Shown here: one piece after another, positions 1,581-25,787 of the stretch | How the letters are laid out: every line of letters begins with the position of its first letter | Position numbering within the stretch: the stretch's first letter is position 1 | Origin: a virus | Reading direction: 5' to 3' (one strand) | Length of the DNA: 25,787 bases | Virus record (IMG/VR): IMGVR_UViG_3300044858_003322 | Span: 1 to 25,787 of that record | The notes under the pieces: model-generated | Told to the model about the DNA's origin: nothing | What the model saw: only the letters and a program-made list of their open reading frames with translations | The model's database searches: none | Position numbers and translations under genes: made by a program

Positions 1581-3295
1581 CCCTCTCATTTGCCGACCGC
1601 GCCACGCAGTACGCGCGCGCCGTCGTAGCAGGGGATGTCCCTGCCTGCAAATGGCACCGGCTCGCCTGCGTCCGCCACCTCAAGGATCTGGATCGCATCG
1701 GCAGCGAGGGCTTCCCCTACACCTTCAACCCCGAACTGACCGACGCTGACGGGATCACCTACCAGCCGGCCGAGCGCGTCTGCAAGTTCGCGCAGCTCAT
1801 GCCGCACATCAAGGGCGACTGGGCTGGCCGCGGCGAGCTGATCAAGCTCGAAGGATGGGAAGTTTTCATCCTGGTCAGCGTCTTCGGCTGGGTGCATACC
1901 GTCACCGGCAAACGTCGCTTCCGCGTGGCCGACCTGATCGTGCCGCGCAAGAATTCCAAGAGCACGCTGGCCGCGATCATCGGCAACTTCATGCTCGCCG
2001 TCGACGGTGAGTTCGGCGCCGAGGTCTATTCCGGCGCCACCTCGCAAGACCAGGCGATGGAAGTATTCCGCCCGGCTCGCCTTATGGCGCTGGCCACTCC
2101 GATCTACCGGCAGAAGTTCGGCGTCGTCGCCAACGTCAGCAACCTCGCCGTCATCGAGAAAAACGCCAAGTTCGAGCCCGTCATCGGCAAGCCCGGCGAC
2201 GGCGCCAGCCCATCTTGCGCCATCGTCGACGAGTACCACGAGCACAAGACCAGCGAGCTGTACGACACCATGCAGACCGGCATGGGCGCGCGCTCGCAGC
2301 CGCTGATGCTGGCCATCACCACCGCCGGCAGCGACATCAGCGGCCCCTGCTACCAGCACCAGGCCGAGCTGCAGAAGATCCTCGAAGGCACGCTGGAGAA
2401 TGACCAGCGCTTCGGCATCATTTTCGGCATCGATGAAGGCGACGATTGGACCAGCGAAGCCGCGCTGATCAAGGCCAACCCGAATTACGGCGTCAGCGTC
2501 GATGCCGAATTCCTCAAGGCGCAGCAACGCGACGCCCTGGCGGACCCGCGCAAGCAGAACACCTTCAAGACCAAGCACCTCAACGTCTGGGTTGCCGCCG
2601 CCTCGCCCTGGCTCAACCTCTACCACCTGCAGCAGGCTGGTGACGCCACGCTCACCCTCGATCAGTTCAAGGGCGAAGAGTGCGTCGTCGGCCTCGACCT
2701 CGCCAGCAAGCAGGACATCGCCACCGCCGTGTGGGAATTCAAGCGCCGCATCGATGACGAAGACCACTACTACGTCGTCACCCGCAACTACGCCCCGCAG
2801 GCCGCCATCGACAAGGAAGAAAACGCGCACTACCGCGGCTGGGTCAATTCCGGCCACCTGATCGCCACCCCCGGCAACATGATCGACCTGGAACAGATCC
2901 AGGAAGAGATCATCACCAGCGCCGAGACCGTGCTGATTCGCGAGATCGCGAAGGATCCCTGGGGCGGCCAGCAGATGGGCGCCAACCTCGCCAAGGAAGG
3001 CTTCGAAGTCGTCGATATACCGCAGCAAGTGCGTTACCTCAGCGACCCGATGAAAGACATCCAGGCGCTGGTCGATGCCGGCCGCTACCACCACGACGCC
3101 AACCCCTGCACCGTTTGGCAATTCAGCAACGTCGAAGTCGCGCCCGACCGCAACGAAAACATCTTCCCGCGCAAGCTGCGTGCGGCGAACAAGATCGATG
3201 CTGCCGTGGCCGCGATCGATGCGCATGGGCGGGCGATGGTAGGCGCCAACGACTCCGACAGCGTCTACAACTCCCGCGGCATCATCGTCGTCTGA
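1568..3295 (+). CDS. terL: Terminase large subunit (ATPase and nuclease)
   Basis: The 575-residue protein is a Terminase_1-type (HK97-like) motor. A Walker A-like segment PRKNSKST lies at about residues 126-133 and a Walker B segment CAIVDE at 217-222, followed by the AITTAGSD coupling motif. The C-terminal nuclease half shows VVGLDLAS near residue 375 and a later KDPWGG segment. It pumps DNA into the prohead through the portal and cuts concatemers, helped by TerS and HNH. Many homologues have Gly where the first Ser of KNSKST lies; Ser should still support ATP binding. The start inside terS is fixed by homology-like N-terminal content and a 13-base overlap. Confidence 0.95.
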   Translation: MEPVALSFADRATQYARAVVAGDVPACKWHRLACVRHLKDLDRIGSEGFPYTFNPELTDADGITYQPAERVCKFAQLMPHIKGDWAGRGELIKLEGWEVFILVSVFGWVHTVTGKRRFRVADLIVPRKNSKSTLAAIIGNFMLAVDGEFGAEVYSGATSQDQAMEVFRPARLMALATPIYRQKFGVVANVSNLAVIEKNAKFEPVIGKPGDGASPSCAIVDEYHEHKTSELYDTMQTGMGARSQPLMLAITTAGSDISGPCYQHQAELQKILEGTLENDQRFGIIFGIDEGDDWTSEAALIKANPNYGVSVDAEFLKAQQRDALADPRKQNTFKTKHLNVWVAAASPWLNLYHLQQAGDATLTLDQFKGEECVVGLDLASKQDIATAVWEFKRRIDDEDHYYVVTRNYAPQAAIDKEENAHYRGWVNSGHLIATPGNMIDLEQIQEEIITSAETVLIREIAKDPWGGQQMGANLAKEGFEVVDIPQQVRYLSDPMKDIQALVDAGRYHHDANPCTVWQFSNVEVAPDRNENIFPRKLRAANKIDAAVAAIDAHGRAMVGANDSDSVYNSRGIIVV

Positions 3296-22782: not shown

Positions 22783-23574
22783 ATGTCTGCACCCATCATT
22801 CCCTGGCTCGGCGGCAAGCGCCGCCTGGCCGATCGCCTCATTCCACTCTTCCCGCCCCATGAGTGCTACGTCGAGTTGTTCTGCGGCGGCGCCGCGCTCT
22901 ATTTCCTGCGCCCGGTGCCGGCATCGGTCGAGATCCTCAACGACGTCAACGGCGAGCTGATCAACCTCTATCGCGTGGTGCAGCACCACCTCGAAGAGTT
23001 CGTCCGCCAGTTCAAGTGGGCGCTGACCAGTCGCCAGGTGTTCAAGTGGCTGCAGGACACCAAGCCCGAGACGCTCACCGACATCCAGCGCGCCGCGCGC
23101 TTCTACTACCTGCAGCACCACGCCTTCGGTGGTCGCGTCGAAAGCCAGTCCTTCGGCACCTCCACCACGGTGCCAGCGATCAACCTGCTGCGTATCGAGG
23201 AGAGCCTCTCGGCCGCACACCTGCGCCTGGCCAACGGCACCACCGTCGAGAACCTGCCCTGGCTGGATTGCCTGACACGCTACGATCGCGCGCACACCTT
23301 CTTCTACGCCGACCCGCCCTACTGGCAGACCGAGGGCTATGGCGTGCCGTTTCCCTTCAGCGAATACCAGGCGCTGGCCAGCGCCATGCGCACCATCAAG
23401 GGCCGCATGATGGTCAGCATCAACGACCACCCGCAGATCCGCGAGGCCTTCGAGGGCCTTGTGATGCACGATCTGGAGATCACCTACTCGGTCGGTACCG
23501 CCGACTCGCACCGCGCCAGCCGCGAGCTGGTGATCACCAACTGGGAGATCTCGGACCTGGGGCAATTATTTTGA
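22783..23574 (+). CDS. DNA adenine methylase, Dam (D12) type
   Basis: The 263-residue protein has D12-class N6-adenine methylase motifs: IPWLGGKRRL near the N-terminus, the SAM-binding ELFCGGAA at 31-38, NDVNGELINLYRVVQ at 53-67, and the catalytic DPPYW at 177-181. It probably marks phage DNA against host restriction or affects packaging and regulation. The target site cannot be read from sequence. GAGGG precedes ATG 22783; a TTG at 22720 in frame would place the start inside the structured region and is less likely. Phage methylases of this kind commonly lie in accessory slots after lysis genes. Confidence 0.92.
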   Translation: MSAPIIPWLGGKRRLADRLIPLFPPHECYVELFCGGAALYFLRPVPASVEILNDVNGELINLYRVVQHHLEEFVRQFKWALTSRQVFKWLQDTKPETLTDIQRAARFYYLQHHAFGGRVESQSFGTSTTVPAINLLRIEESLSAAHLRLANGTTVENLPWLDCLTRYDRAHTFFYADPPYWQTEGYGVPFPFSEYQALASAMRTIKGRMMVSINDHPQIREAFEGLVMHDLEITYSVGTADSHRASRELVITNWEISDLGQLF

Positions 23575-23584
23575 CTGGAACCGC

Positions 23585-23613
23585 TTGACTTGTGCCGGCA
23601 CCAGAGCGTTACT
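23585..23613 (+). promoter_or_regulatory. Weak possible promoter with a dyad in the spacer
   Basis: TTGACT (23585-23590) is followed at 17 bases by GTTACT (23608-23613), a poor -10. The perfect palindrome GTGCCGGCAC (23592-23601) lies between. The ten bases CTTGACTTGT (23584-23593) recur at the stronger promoter at 24010-24019. This may be a weak relative of that promoter driving the two small genes. Confidence 0.3.
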
Positions 23614-23644
23614 GCCGACGTCGCCAACGCGCCCGGAGCCCACC

Positions 23645-23815
23645 ATGGACCAGACCCTGCAGCAGATCGCCAAAACCGCCCTCGATATCGATACCCTGGA
23701 GACGCAGCGCTCTGACCGTCTGGACTTCCACGACGTGGCCGTCTGGCGCCTCAAGGCGGCCCTGGAAGCGGCCTACCAGGCTGGCCAGCAGGCGGCTGCC
23801 GGGAGTCGGTCATGA
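23645..23815 (+). CDS. Small DUF6900-like protein
   Basis: The 56-residue protein contains ALDIDTLETQRSDRLDFHDVAVWRLKAALEAAYQAG in its middle, a pattern of small proteins found in phages and mobile elements (DUF6900-like by my reading). It folds probably as a small helical unit. Its role is unknown. It overlaps the next gene by four bases (ATGA), so both are likely co-translated. Its place next to the Aca2-like operon makes it a secondary anti-defence suspect only by location. Confidence 0.65.
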   Translation: MDQTLQQIAKTALDIDTLETQRSDRLDFHDVAVWRLKAALEAAYQAGQQAAAGSRS

Positions 23816-24390
23816 GCCAATACACCAGCGGGGAATTCACGGTGGACCAGATCGGATTCATCCAGATCGCCGACGTCGAGGTCCTGGCCGCCGTTGCGCG
23901 CGGCGAGATCGACCTCAACCAAATCGCCCGCGAGGAGCTGGCCAGCCGGGGGATGAGCGATCAGGGACGGTGGGTGGGGTTTGATGCTGCAAAAAAATTC
24001 TCGAAAGGACTTGACTTGTTCGCAAACGCGAACTATGATCTAATCATAGTGAATCGCAACCGGCGGTTCCTACTCCAGGAGAACACCATGAACACACAAC
24101 TTCAAGCCTTCGCAGTCGCCACCAACAACGAGCTGTTCGATGTCGACTACAACGGCGGCGAGTGGATGATCGAAGCGGTCGAAACGCACGAGACGATCGA
24201 CCAGTTCGTGCAATCTTCAAACGGCTACAACGAGTGCACCCGCGAGAAGTTCGGCGAGATCGCCGGCTTCAAATTCGTGGCCTTCAGTCAAGTTCAGCCG
24301 CGCAAGGGCGATCAGCGCCGCCAGCTCTCGGTGATCGACTTCGGTGATGTACGCTACGCGCTCAATTGCGATCTGACCGACTTCACATGA
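23812..24390 (+). CDS. Small mobile-element protein whose frame runs into the acr candidate
   Basis: The first about 62 residues (FTVDQIGFIQIADVEVLAAVARGEIDLNQIAREELASRG and then GRWVGFDAAK) match a type of short protein common on phages and integrative elements, normally ending near WVGF plus a few residues. Here no stop follows: the frame continues through a promoter (24011-24039) and its dyads, then joins in frame with the gene at 24088. Residues about 63-92 therefore translate regulatory DNA. The likely history is insertion of the acr-aca cassette at the 3' end of this gene, with loss of its stop. A fused 192-residue product is possible, but the two-gene reading is preferred. Confidence 0.55.
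   Translation: MSQYTSGEFTVDQIGFIQIADVEVLAAVARGEIDLNQIAREELASRGMSDQGRWVGFDAAKKFSKGLDLFANANYDLIIVNRNRRFLLQENTMNTQLQAFAVATNNELFDVDYNGGEWMIEAVETHETIDQFVQSSNGYNECTREKFGEIAGFKFVAFSQVQPRKGDQRRQLSVIDFGDVRYALNCDLTDFT
24011..24049 (+). promoter_or_regulatory. Strong promoter with two operator dyads (acr-aca type)
   Basis: TTGACT (24011-24016) and TATGAT (24034-24039) are 17 bases apart. The spacer contains a perfect inverted repeat GTTCGC-AAAC-GCGAAC (24018-24033) that ends right at the -10. A second perfect inverted repeat CTATGAT-CTA-ATCATAG (24033-24049) covers the -10 and transcription start. A dimeric repressor at either site would block polymerase. The natural candidate is the HTH protein encoded downstream at 24387. 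Confidence 0.82.
24066..24084 (+). promoter_or_regulatory. Possible RNA hairpin over the ribosome binding site
   Basis: GTTC (24066-24069) and GAAC (24081-24084) flank the Shine-Dalgarno AGGAG (24077-24081), so the mRNA could fold to hide it. The half-sites match the outer bases of the DNA dyad at 24018-24033. Aca2 of phage ZF40 is reported to act on both its promoter and its mRNA, so this could be a second control point. The stem is short, so this is tentative. Confidence 0.35.
24088..24390 (+). CDS. Candidate anti-CRISPR protein (unknown family)
   Basis: This 100-residue protein is not recognised. It has a good ribosome binding site (AGGAG, 24077-24081) and its own strong regulated promoter. 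It is acidic (about 16 Asp/Glu against 8 Lys/Arg) and of mixed helix/strand type: NNELFDVDYNGGEWMIEAVE, then FGEIAGFKFVAFSQV and LSVIDFGDVRYAL. There is no signal peptide or membrane segment. It overlaps by four bases with an Aca2-like regulator gene. Small, acidic, unknown proteins in this arrangement are typical anti-CRISPRs, which inhibit Cas complexes. The base composition is visibly less GC-rich than the virion genes. The anti-CRISPR call is by association only; the target system cannot be inferred. Confidence 0.6.
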   Translation: MNTQLQAFAVATNNELFDVDYNGGEWMIEAVETHETIDQFVQSSNGYNECTREKFGEIAGFKFVAFSQVQPRKGDQRRQLSVIDFGDVRYALNCDLTDFT

Positions 24391-24845
24391 CCCCTGCCAC
24401 CCTGCAGGCGCTGCGGCGCCTGCTCTTCTTCACTGTCGAGGAGGCCGCTGCGATGATCGGCGGTGTTTCGCCTCGCTCGTGGCAATTCTGGGAGCGTGGC
24501 GAACGGACCATTCCGGCCGATGTGATCGAAACCGTCCAGCGCCTGCTGGCCTGGCGTGCCCAGGCGCTGGCTACGGCTCAAAACGCCATGGCCGAGATTC
24601 AGGCCCAGCACGGCCCGGCTGAGGGTATTCGGCTGGTGTGGTACCAGTCCGCCGACGATTGGGCCACGGTGCCAGGATTTGATCCGCTGCTGTGGCGTCC
24701 GCATTGCTCGGTAGCCGCTGACCTGGCCGCGAATCATGGCGCGGAGCTGGTGGCGTTCGATGGTCCGGCCTACGCGGCCTGGCTCGGGAAGCGCAAGGAC
24801 TCTGAGTCGATGCGGGGTGCGTGGGCGGCGAATTCTTGTCAGTAA
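24387..24845 (+). CDS. Aca2-like HTH autorepressor (DUF1870/YdiL family)
   Basis: The 152-residue protein begins TLQALRRLLFFTVEEAAAMIGGVSPRSWQFWERGERTIPADVIE, the helix-turn-helix of the DUF1870/YdiL family, which includes Aca2, the repressor of anti-CRISPR operons. The C-terminal part (IRLVWYQSADDWATVPGFDPLLWRPHCSVAADLAANHG) matches the family's dimerisation half. It is longer than Aca2 and YdiL (about 116-118 residues), with a longer linker and tail. It overlaps the upstream gene by four bases. It probably dimerises on the dyads at 24018-24049 and limits its own operon. Membership in DUF1870 is a firm reading; the Aca2 role is inferred. Confidence 0.82.
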   Translation: MTPATLQALRRLLFFTVEEAAAMIGGVSPRSWQFWERGERTIPADVIETVQRLLAWRAQALATAQNAMAEIQAQHGPAEGIRLVWYQSADDWATVPGFDPLLWRPHCSVAADLAANHGAELVAFDGPAYAAWLGKRKDSESMRGAWAANSCQ

Positions 24846-24848
24846 TTC
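24837..24848 (+). repeat. Integrase arm-site-like repeat 1 (inverted)
   Basis: TGTCAGTAATTC here is the reverse complement of GAATTACTGACA at 24889-24900 and 25031-25042. It overlaps the stop codon of the Aca2-like gene. Copies on both sides of the tRNA-like core suggest integrase arm-binding sites. Confidence 0.75.
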
Positions 24849-24886
24849 CAACGAGAACGGCGCAACCACGCGGGTATAATAGCTGC

Positions 24887-24902
24887 CTGAATTACTGACA
24901 GA
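24887..24902 (+). repeat. Integrase arm-site-like repeat 2
   Basis: CTGAATTACTGACAGA is repeated exactly at 25029-25044 (16 bp). It lies on the late-gene side of the attachment core and forms an inverted pair with the copy at 24837-24848. Confidence 0.78.
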
Positions 24903-24915
24903 ATATAACTAAGTC

Positions 24916-24987
24916 GCTGTTTTGTCGGGTTTTGGCGTCTGCTTCGTAATCAGTAGGTCGCCAGTTCGATTCCGGCCAACAGCACCA
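24916..24987 (+). other. attP core: degenerate tRNA-Thr(CGT)-like sequence
   Basis: The segment from about 24943 on reads as the 3' part of a tRNA: anticodon loop TTCGTAA (anticodon CGT, 24945-24947, Thr), a variable AGGTC, a T-arm with GTTCGATTC (24964-24972, one stem mismatch), an acceptor strand CAACAGC and ACCA (24984-24987). GCTGTTT (24916-24922) pairs at six of seven positions with the acceptor strand, but the D-arm is short and the anticodon stem has mismatches, so the 5' half is degenerate. It is probably the integrase crossover region that restores the host tRNA gene after integration. A functional tRNA is unlikely. Confidence 0.65.
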
Positions 24988-24994
24988 ATACTTC

Positions 24995-25026
24995 AACGGG
25001 TTAGCATTGCGCTAGCCCGTTTTTTT
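24995..25026 (+). terminator. Intrinsic terminator after the attachment core
   Basis: Bases 24995-25005 pair with 25011-25021 (11 bp, one wobble) around a five-base loop, followed by a T-run through 25026. It could be the native terminator of the tRNA gene carried in the att sequence. The stop codon of the minus-strand integrase lies in the second arm. Confidence 0.8.
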
Positions 25027-25787
25027 GTCTGAATTACTGACAGATGTCAGTAATTCCGCCTCCTCTGGCCGCATCGGGATCGATCCCGGTAGCGTGTCGA
25101 TTCGCACCTCGTAATGACGTGCGGTTGTGCGCGGGTCGGTATGCAATCCGCGTCGGCGCGCCTCCTCGAGCGTGGCTGCCTGGTTGAGGCTCGTCTTGCG
25201 CAGATCCCTCATCTGCCAGTCGATGAAGGCTTCGCCAATATCTTCCCTCGCCTTGATTCTGGCGTCGTCGAATCGATTGCGCAACATGGCGTGGGTTACT
25301 CGCTGGCCCTCGTCCGTCTGCAGCAGCCAGGGGCCGGTCGCCTTCCGCTTGCGTTCCTTCAGTTCCTCGATCAGCGCCTTCAGGTCGCGCTCGACGGCCA
25401 TCAGGCCGAGCGTTCCCGTCTTGGTCGATCGGTACCGCAGTGCATCCTTCTTGTCGCCGTCAGTCACCACGTCTGTGCGCATGATTCTGGTGATGTCGCT
25501 GACCCGTTGGCCGATGACGATGTCCAGACGCATCCAGTCTCGCAGCACCTGGTCGCCGCGATCGTAGATCGCCCAGAACATTTCCGCCGTGACCAGGACT
25601 GTGCGCACTTCTTCGGCGTAGCCTTCGACGCCGGTGCAAGGGTTGGGTAGGTCCGTCTTGCCGCGTGATCGCGCCCAGTTCCACATGCGCGAGAGCGTGG
25701 CCTTGATGCGGTTGGCCAGCACCGGCGTGCCGGCCAGTTCGTCAAGCAGCTTGCCGACGTGTACCGGCTTGATCGTGGCCATGGGCG
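25012..25787 (-). CDS. int: Tyrosine integrase (C-terminal part, cut by window edge)
   Basis: The visible 256 residues after Met 25782 cover the end of the core-binding domain (ANRIKATLSRMWNWARSRGKTDLPNPC) and the catalytic domain: IGQRVSDI with the first Arg, STKTGTLG with the Lys, WQMRDLRKT with the second Arg (the usual His position is Arg here, as in some phage integrases) and TTARHYEVR with the probable Tyr nucleophile. The frame is open past the Met to the window edge, so the N-terminal arm-binding domain lies outside. Its last codons overlap two arm-site-like repeats (25029-25057). It would recombine attP with the host tRNA-Thr gene. It is transcribed toward att, as in lambda. Confidence 0.9.
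   Translation of the reverse strand, partial: PMATIKPVHVGKLLDELAGTPVLANRIKATLSRMWNWARSRGKTDLPNPCTGVEGYAEEVRTVLVTAEMFWAIYDRGDQVLRDWMRLDIVIGQRVSDITRIMRTDVVTDGDKKDALRYRSTKTGTLGLMAVERDLKALIEELKERKRKATGPWLLQTDEGQRVTHAMLRNRFDDARIKAREDIGEAFIDWQMRDLRKTSLNQAATLEEARRRGLHTDPRTTARHYEVRIDTLPGSIPMRPEEAELLTSVSNSDKKTG
25029..25057 (+). repeat. Integrase arm-site-like repeats 3 and 4 (paired)
   Basis: GAATTACTGACA (25031-25042) and TGTCAGTAATTC (25045-25056) form a perfect 12-2-12 inverted repeat. Copy 3 with flanks (25029-25044) matches 24887-24902 exactly. Both lie in the last codons of int, on the other side of the core from copies 1 and 2. Confidence 0.8.

Follow-up and report, generated by a model that had tools for sequence, protein, structure and literature searches.

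The window, that is, the whole stretch of DNA analysed here, is a 25,787-bp IMG/VR virus record in which terminase, portal and CHAP-domain genes are present. At positions 24011-24845 lies a two-gene operon, in which the ORF of an acidic 100-aa protein (16 D+E, 8 K+R) overlaps by four bases, ATGA, with the ORF of a helix-turn-helix (HTH) regulator of the Aca2 family. An earlier, sequence-only reading of this DNA had put the cassette between lysis/methylase genes and attP; its flanks are a methylase upstream (Pfam D12, 0.5 kb away) and an integrase downstream, on the other strand at the right end of the window. The G+C content is 64.7% in the window, 47.6% in the promoter-leader, 56.4% in the 100-aa gene and 66.0% in aca2. 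The locus comprises the following features:

24011..24016, + strand: -35 hexamer TTGACT
24018..24033, + strand: Aca2-type operator GTTCGC-AAAC-GCGAAC (predicted), with arms as in ZF40 (L003) and L056 and 16/16 bases identical in L054
24032..24050, no strand assigned: second dyad ACTATGAT-cta-ATCATAGT, perfect, covering the -10 hexamer and the start site
24034..24039, + strand: -10 hexamer TATGAT
24051..24069, + strand: predicted leader RNA hairpin GAAUCGC-AACCG-GCGGUUC, from folding, at the position seen in nine further leaders of Aca2 type
24077..24081, + strand: Shine-Dalgarno-like AGGAG, within the short palindrome CTCC-A-GGAG (24073-24081)
24088..24390, + strand: 100-aa candidate anti-defence or anti-CRISPR protein, from homologue scans, alignment and an AlphaFold2 model
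24387..24845, + strand: Aca2-family HTH regulator of 152 aa, from Pfam and PDB sequence matches, alignment and a survey of loci
24995..25021, + strand: stem of 11 pairs with a T run, resembling an intrinsic terminator, downstream of the two genes

The promoter TTGACT-N17-TATGAT (24011-24039) is the sole sigma-70-like match in 23560-25100 (10/12 matches; shuffles mean 0.3). The predicted operator GTTCGC-N4-GCGAAC sits between its -35 and -10 hexamers and occurs in exact form once in the 25,787 bp, and a 6-N4-6 inverted repeat arose by chance in 61 of 20,000 promoter shuffles. As for the second dyad, shuffling the intergenic region 1000 times gave arms of at least 8 bp in 9 cases, and the dyad is absent from the same place in L054, a viral locus whose operator is identical. 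Terminator-like sites numbered two, against a mean of 1.1 in shuffles. Operon and regulator are very likely what the sequence-only reading had taken them to be: the sigma-70-type hexamers, the dyads at 24018-24033 and 24032-24050, the acidic ORF and the Aca2_YdiL gene overlapping it by 4 bp were all recovered.

An ORF upstream of the operon (23812-24390) matches phrog_22970 (E 1.6e-14, up to position 80 of 84); having no stop, it stays in frame through the operator and on into the 100-aa gene, which gives the impression that the cassette landed on the 3' end of the phrog_22970 ORF. The same letters are found at this junction in the copy contigs L005 and L006. At 24837-25057, the 12-mer GAATTACTGACA occurs in four copies and both orientations around a segment resembling a tRNA 3' end (about 24930-24985, delimited by eye; a whole tRNA was not found by ARAGORN), and this region is likely an attP with integrase arm sites. 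An exact 32-base att-like segment was present in 0 of 200 genomes from the order of a Xylophilus MAG that carries a relative of the 100-aa protein, a count in which a single base difference would hide a match; it excludes nothing and lends no support to the betaproteobacterial host implied earlier.

The HTH gene with four-base overlap had been assigned to DUF1870/YdiL, and its product indeed matches Pfam Aca2_YdiL (PF08965) above the curated cut-off (70.7 bits against 23.8, E 1.5e-19); the top five matches among PDB sequences comprise four of Aca2 and one of YdiL. In alignment, it is 36-37% identical to the proteins of ZF40, Pm86 and CFP3, and Arg30, which PMC8434428 names as key to DNA binding by Aca2, is invariant in all four Aca2 proteins aligned. 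The recognition helix SPRSWQFWE fits the form SxRSWQ[YF]WE, as in ZF40. Matches to the regulator were found in 5 phage and 8 plasmid records, with the surroundings viewed for ZF40, Pm86 and CFP3. The protein had also been thought long enough to represent a divergent branch. Length was rejected as a mark of a new branch, 152 aa being not unusual: the mean of Aca2 is given as 136 aa (PMC9410906), lengths of 143-187 aa are found in 9 of the 21 other viral loci surveyed below, and L053-L055 and Pm86 have 148-157 aa. The sequence supports the regulator as an Aca2-family member with a predicted operator of Aca2 type.

A scan of viral contigs recovered 23 Aca2-type loci, two of which are copies of the window, and 25 rows were surveyed (the 21 other viral loci, the window, ZF40, Pm86 and CFP3). 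A TTCGC-type inverted repeat lies at the promoter in 8 of the 9 rows with an RSWQ[YF]WE helix, namely the window, L003, L054, L056, L060, L061, L063 and L065, with one mismatch in one arm in L060 and L061 and a different outer base in L065; the ninth row, L053, has none there. Some rows depend on one another, L003 and L063 being one phage and L060 and L061 having a common protein start and site, so the group is more fairly counted as 6 of 7 distinct loci. GTCG-type repeats accompany the WQRWE helix in three rows out of four (L004, L062 and L067, not L066), and a TTCGC-type site at the promoter was found in none of the 12 remaining surveyed rows; L064 has one with a single mismatch about 1.1 kb upstream, away from the lead gene. 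Operator type, as predicted from these repeats, largely follows the recognition helix across the 25 Aca2-type loci. The Aca2 of L054 is 62% identical to that of the window and its 16-base operator is identical, yet its 90-aa lead gene is a different one, which indicates that operator and regulator remain linked when the lead gene is exchanged.

The earlier reading had pointed to the neighbours of DUF1870 genes, and on viral contigs the lead genes do include kin of known Acrs, in L056 (PDB AcrF6, E 8.1e-6) and in L062 (Pfam AcrF8, E 6.7e-7); the lead gene of ZF40 is AcrIF8 (PMC8434428). The helix-operator correspondence would offer a route to acr operons from regulator and operator alone, with L054, L065 and L067 as the next loci. 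L054:2732-3001, the 90-aa lead gene behind the identical operator, is an acr candidate, and L065:2309-2776 and L067:2756-2959 are further candidate acr lead genes; none of the three has a Pfam match.

Association with Aca2 alone is weak evidence for an acr gene, because an acr is found upstream in only 35 of 1223 Aca2-like proteins, or 3% (PMC9410906). This low share would suit an accessory gene that has no counter-defence role (host takeover, superinfection exclusion or metabolism) and is merely controlled by an Aca2-like autorepressor, as would the location of YdiL and SO3848 outside prophages (PMC8434428) and the position of the closest other Aca2 relative (64%, L053), which follows an R2K ATP-grasp gene. 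However, the L053 arrangement is a different one, since the Aca2 operator was not found in the 1.2 kb upstream of its regulator, whereas the window has an operator of the kind that known acr operons carry; the context of a polyvalent protein, described below, also indicates conflict. We regard such an accessory role as quite unlikely. In L053 itself (2204-3004), the R2K-clade ATP-grasp gene overlaps the Aca2 relative and the Aca2 operator is absent.

A 2024 Nature paper reportedly describes control by Aca2 through a leader RNA hairpin, with RNA binding by Aca2. In predicted folds, a first hairpin occurs in all ten Aca2-type leaders examined, and it is followed in nine by a hairpin at the Shine-Dalgarno sequence, the exception being the window with just two pairs. 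The window hairpin alone is not significant, as 133 of 500 shuffles fold equally well (z -0.59 for the leader, or -1.64 with other bounds). Taken jointly, the ten leaders reach a Z of -7.2, a value inflated because the bounds were hand-picked after the hairpins had been seen. A MAFFT alignment of the ten left the stems out of register.

The 100-aa protein is, as the sequence-only reading held, acidic and without a recognised family: Pfam, NCBIfam, PADLOC and PDB-sequence searches gave no named family, with nothing above the curated cut-off in Pfam or NCBIfam and nothing in PADLOC. Its best PHROG match is weak and nameless (phrog_8066, E 0.0018) and, being matched by 1 of 11 family members, was rejected as a family name. 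A tblastn search found no match in 50,697 phage or 72,556 plasmid records; the relatives in L010, searched against plasmid records, and in L014, against phage records, had none either. Successive scans of viral contigs with growing alignments retrieved 3, 4, 7, 13 and 13 loci. The family is rare: outside the window it was found on 13 viral contigs, of which two are window copies, identical over the 2 kb compared. Genome contigs yielded one match, a 72% relative in the Xylophilus MAG. In samples of the taxa to which this MAG belongs, carriers made up 2 of 399 genomes at order level, 2 of 399 at family level and 1 of 369 at class level, with the MAG itself counted each time; the others are G335 (58% identity) and G530 (a distant relative, E 2.7e-6).

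An alignment of 11 family members contains 20 invariant columns, and the gene is under purifying selection (pS 0.61 and pN 0.17 against L007; pS 0.46 and pN 0.19 against L010). AlphaFold2, run on this alignment, gave a pLDDT of 94.3, with all five models above 93, and a predicted fold of helix, strand, helix, four strands and short helix. Fold searches with a first model (PDB, BFVD, VIA) and a second one (PDB, VIA) returned nothing at E <= 0.001; the best VIA Z values, 4.8 and 5.0 respectively, are below the level common for models without a clear match, and AcrID1 appeared at chance level (E 1.7). PDB sequences matched the family profile by chance only (best E 0.21). In the profile and structure searches of 24088-24390 that the earlier reading had proposed, the protein is confidently modelled; the libraries searched (Pfam, NCBIfam, PADLOC and PDB sequences) hold no match indicating kinship with a known Acr and the fold searches gave no clear match. 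Word-based literature searches found no paper naming the family, and word matching cannot show a family to be unpublished. The lead protein is a member of a family unnamed in the libraries searched, and is of an already known kind.

Gene neighbours were examined in 12 loci, comprising the window, L007, L014-L017, L025-L027 and the genomic L010, L021 and L034, with L022-L024 left out. An Aca-type HTH gene lies downstream of the family member in 4 of the 12 and was not recognised in the other 8, which were judged by eye with few family scans. Aca2 was seen as the partner in no locus other than the window and its copies; among six carrier records, PF08965 scored above its cut-off in one, itself a window copy. 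Elsewhere the HTH gene is Aca10-like, and is the next gene in L014, separated by one gene in L026 and by two in L007. These genes match PDB 7xi5 (E 1.4e-16 for L007, 8.7e-20 for L014 and 1.1e-10 for L026), which is taken as Aca10; it is cited once in PMC9410881, the Aca10 structure paper, and chain and protein both have 65 aa. The L014 gene matches no phage record and 81 plasmid records, 63 of them from Klebsiella.

Between the -35 and -10 hexamers, a palindrome pairs 8 of 9 positions in L007 and L014 and 6 of 9 in L026. The last says little, because relatives that have no Aca10-like gene likewise show upstream palindromes with 6-7 of 9 pairs. The three palindromes resemble the published Aca10 repeat only marginally, with 7, 8 and 89 of 500 shuffles as good for L007, L014 and L026, respectively. 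In L007 (4578-4919) and L026 (1581-2090), the second-gene products have MTGKH[FY]NWHKRW in common near their start; encoded after the family member and before the Aca10-like gene, they are a further anti-defence candidate, and the one in L026 has no match in phage records.

Gene order and the 4-bp overlap resemble those of type II toxin-antitoxin pairs, and the Aca10-like genes match the MqsA antitoxin model weakly (E 2.4e-4 in L007, 0.022 in L014), which raises the reading of the locus as a 100-aa toxin with an HTH antitoxin. Yet the regulator varies among loci between Aca2 and Aca10-like, one relative has no recognised partner (L021), another is a domain of a large ORF (L010), and neither family nor fold searches gave a toxin match; on these grounds the toxin-antitoxin reading, which we hold to be highly improbable, was rejected. 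Among the remaining neighbourhoods, the next protein in L025 and L027 has no family match, and in L015-L017 the family member is followed by runs of small genes. In these three loci, several small genes, the family member among them, stand behind a near-identical promoter-leader sequence, and the other small genes include repeats beginning MIDPNFDP.

In L010, the locus of the Xylophilus MAG, a 1793-aa ORF includes the 72% relative as a domain, along with InPase (E 4.2e-49), DarA_N (E 9.3e-46) and DUF2958 (E 3.4e-4) domains. DarA_N is a defence-against-restriction domain. In this one case the family occurs within a polyvalent protein, and the apparent double role, as lead gene of an operon and as polyvalent-protein module, stands out as the most surprising finding, read from the sequence of a single locus. 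The lead gene is supported as an accessory gene, with relatives upstream of Aca10-like regulators and, in one instance, within an ORF that has a DarA_N domain.

Judged by the DarA_N context, restriction is indicated no less than CRISPR. The lead protein could accordingly be an anti-restriction or other anti-defence protein rather than an anti-CRISPR, with Aca2 merely its off switch; besides the ORF with DarA_N and InPase, this would agree with the D12 methylase that the phage carries 0.5 kb upstream and with the clustering of Acr loci with anti-restriction genes described in PMC7648647. Against it stand the regulators of the family, which fall into two types that acr operons are known to have, and the presence of type I-C cas8c in the genomes of both close relatives. 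We consider this alternative possible, if on the unlikely side.

The cas8c gene (PF09709) is found in both G001 and G335, the two MAGs with close relatives, compared with 41 of 399 genomes in the order sample; the chance of two out of two is 0.010, in a test picked after the cas genes had been seen, and this post hoc link to type I-C is weak. Cas1 matches occur in G001, G335 and G530, the one in G001 covering 91 of 283 positions and containing a stop. By eye, no intact cas7 or cas4 ORF was seen in G335, and a CRISPR array was not found in G001 or G335 with the one repeat ending tried. In G530, a locus of type II-C-like appearance was recognised by eye, with a 1117-aa Cas9-like ORF and a CRISPR array in which 97 spacers were read; the array lies beside Cas1 and the Cas9-like ORF (L036 and L037:2043-2072). 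When spacers were compared with the window and the collected loci, one from G530 matched its own genome at 30 of 30 bases, in a prophage-like region about 7.6 kb from the distant relative, and a second matched at 22 of 23 bases.

Our preferred reading, to which we assign a probability of roughly 0.58, is that the operon, negatively autoregulated by Aca2, produces an anti-defence protein early on, an anti-CRISPR being the most likely kind. That the lead protein serves anti-defence at all is probable; that CRISPR is its target is about an even question. From the operon layout, the repressor family, the recognition helix, the operator and the lead-protein family with its neighbours, all read from the sequence, we infer repression, timing, inhibition and CRISPR as target. 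Upon phage entry, with Aca2 absent, the promoter would fire and give a burst of the 100-aa protein. Translation of the overlapping aca2 gene would then supply an Aca2 dimer, expected to occupy GTTCGC-N4-GCGAAC between -35 and -10 and to exclude RNA polymerase; Aca2 may additionally bind the leader hairpin and restrain translation. The small acidic alpha+beta protein would then presumably attach to a host immune complex and block it.

A more speculative and unlikely proposal is that of a portable inhibitor module, used both as an early gene switched by Aca2 or Aca10-like regulators and as a domain of an injected virion polyvalent protein, with type I-C CRISPR-Cas as target. If true, the same inhibitor would act at entry and after expression, and anti-CRISPR operons would be linked to DarA-type polyvalent proteins. 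The locus offers a small, confidently modelled candidate inhibitor that is associated with two Aca types and belongs to no named family in the libraries searched, and through a module in common with a polyvalent protein of DarA type, expressed anti-defence genes would be connected to injected ones.

Among known systems, the operon resembles acrIF8-aca2 of Pectobacterium phage ZF40 in its lead gene followed by Aca2, its predicted leader hairpin and its predicted operator GTTCGC-N4-GCGAAC, with the same arms between -35 and -10; a published Aca2 oligo also has these arms (PMC9410881). Unlike in ZF40, the lead proteins have no recognised similarity, the 100-aa protein missing the Pfam AcrF8 model, and the ZF40 Aca2, 36 aa shorter, is 35% identical to that of the window over residues 1-122. 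The acrIF6-like-aca2 operon of L056, in which the first 60 residues of Aca2 equal PDB 7ezy, has the operator arms and the helix SPRSWQ[FY]WE in common with the window, but its lead protein matches PDB AcrF6 and that of the window does not. With the acrIC7-acrIC6-aca10 operon of Pseudomonas citronellolis the likeness lies in the L007, L014 and L026 relatives upstream of Aca10-like HTH genes; PMC7913775 gives WP_080050315.1 as the accession of AcrIC6 and WP_003294373.1 as that of AcrIC7. Phage-type polyvalent proteins with DarA_N and InPase are resembled through L010, where the 72% relative is one domain; unlike in these proteins, the domain in the window is a separate gene with its own promoter and regulator.
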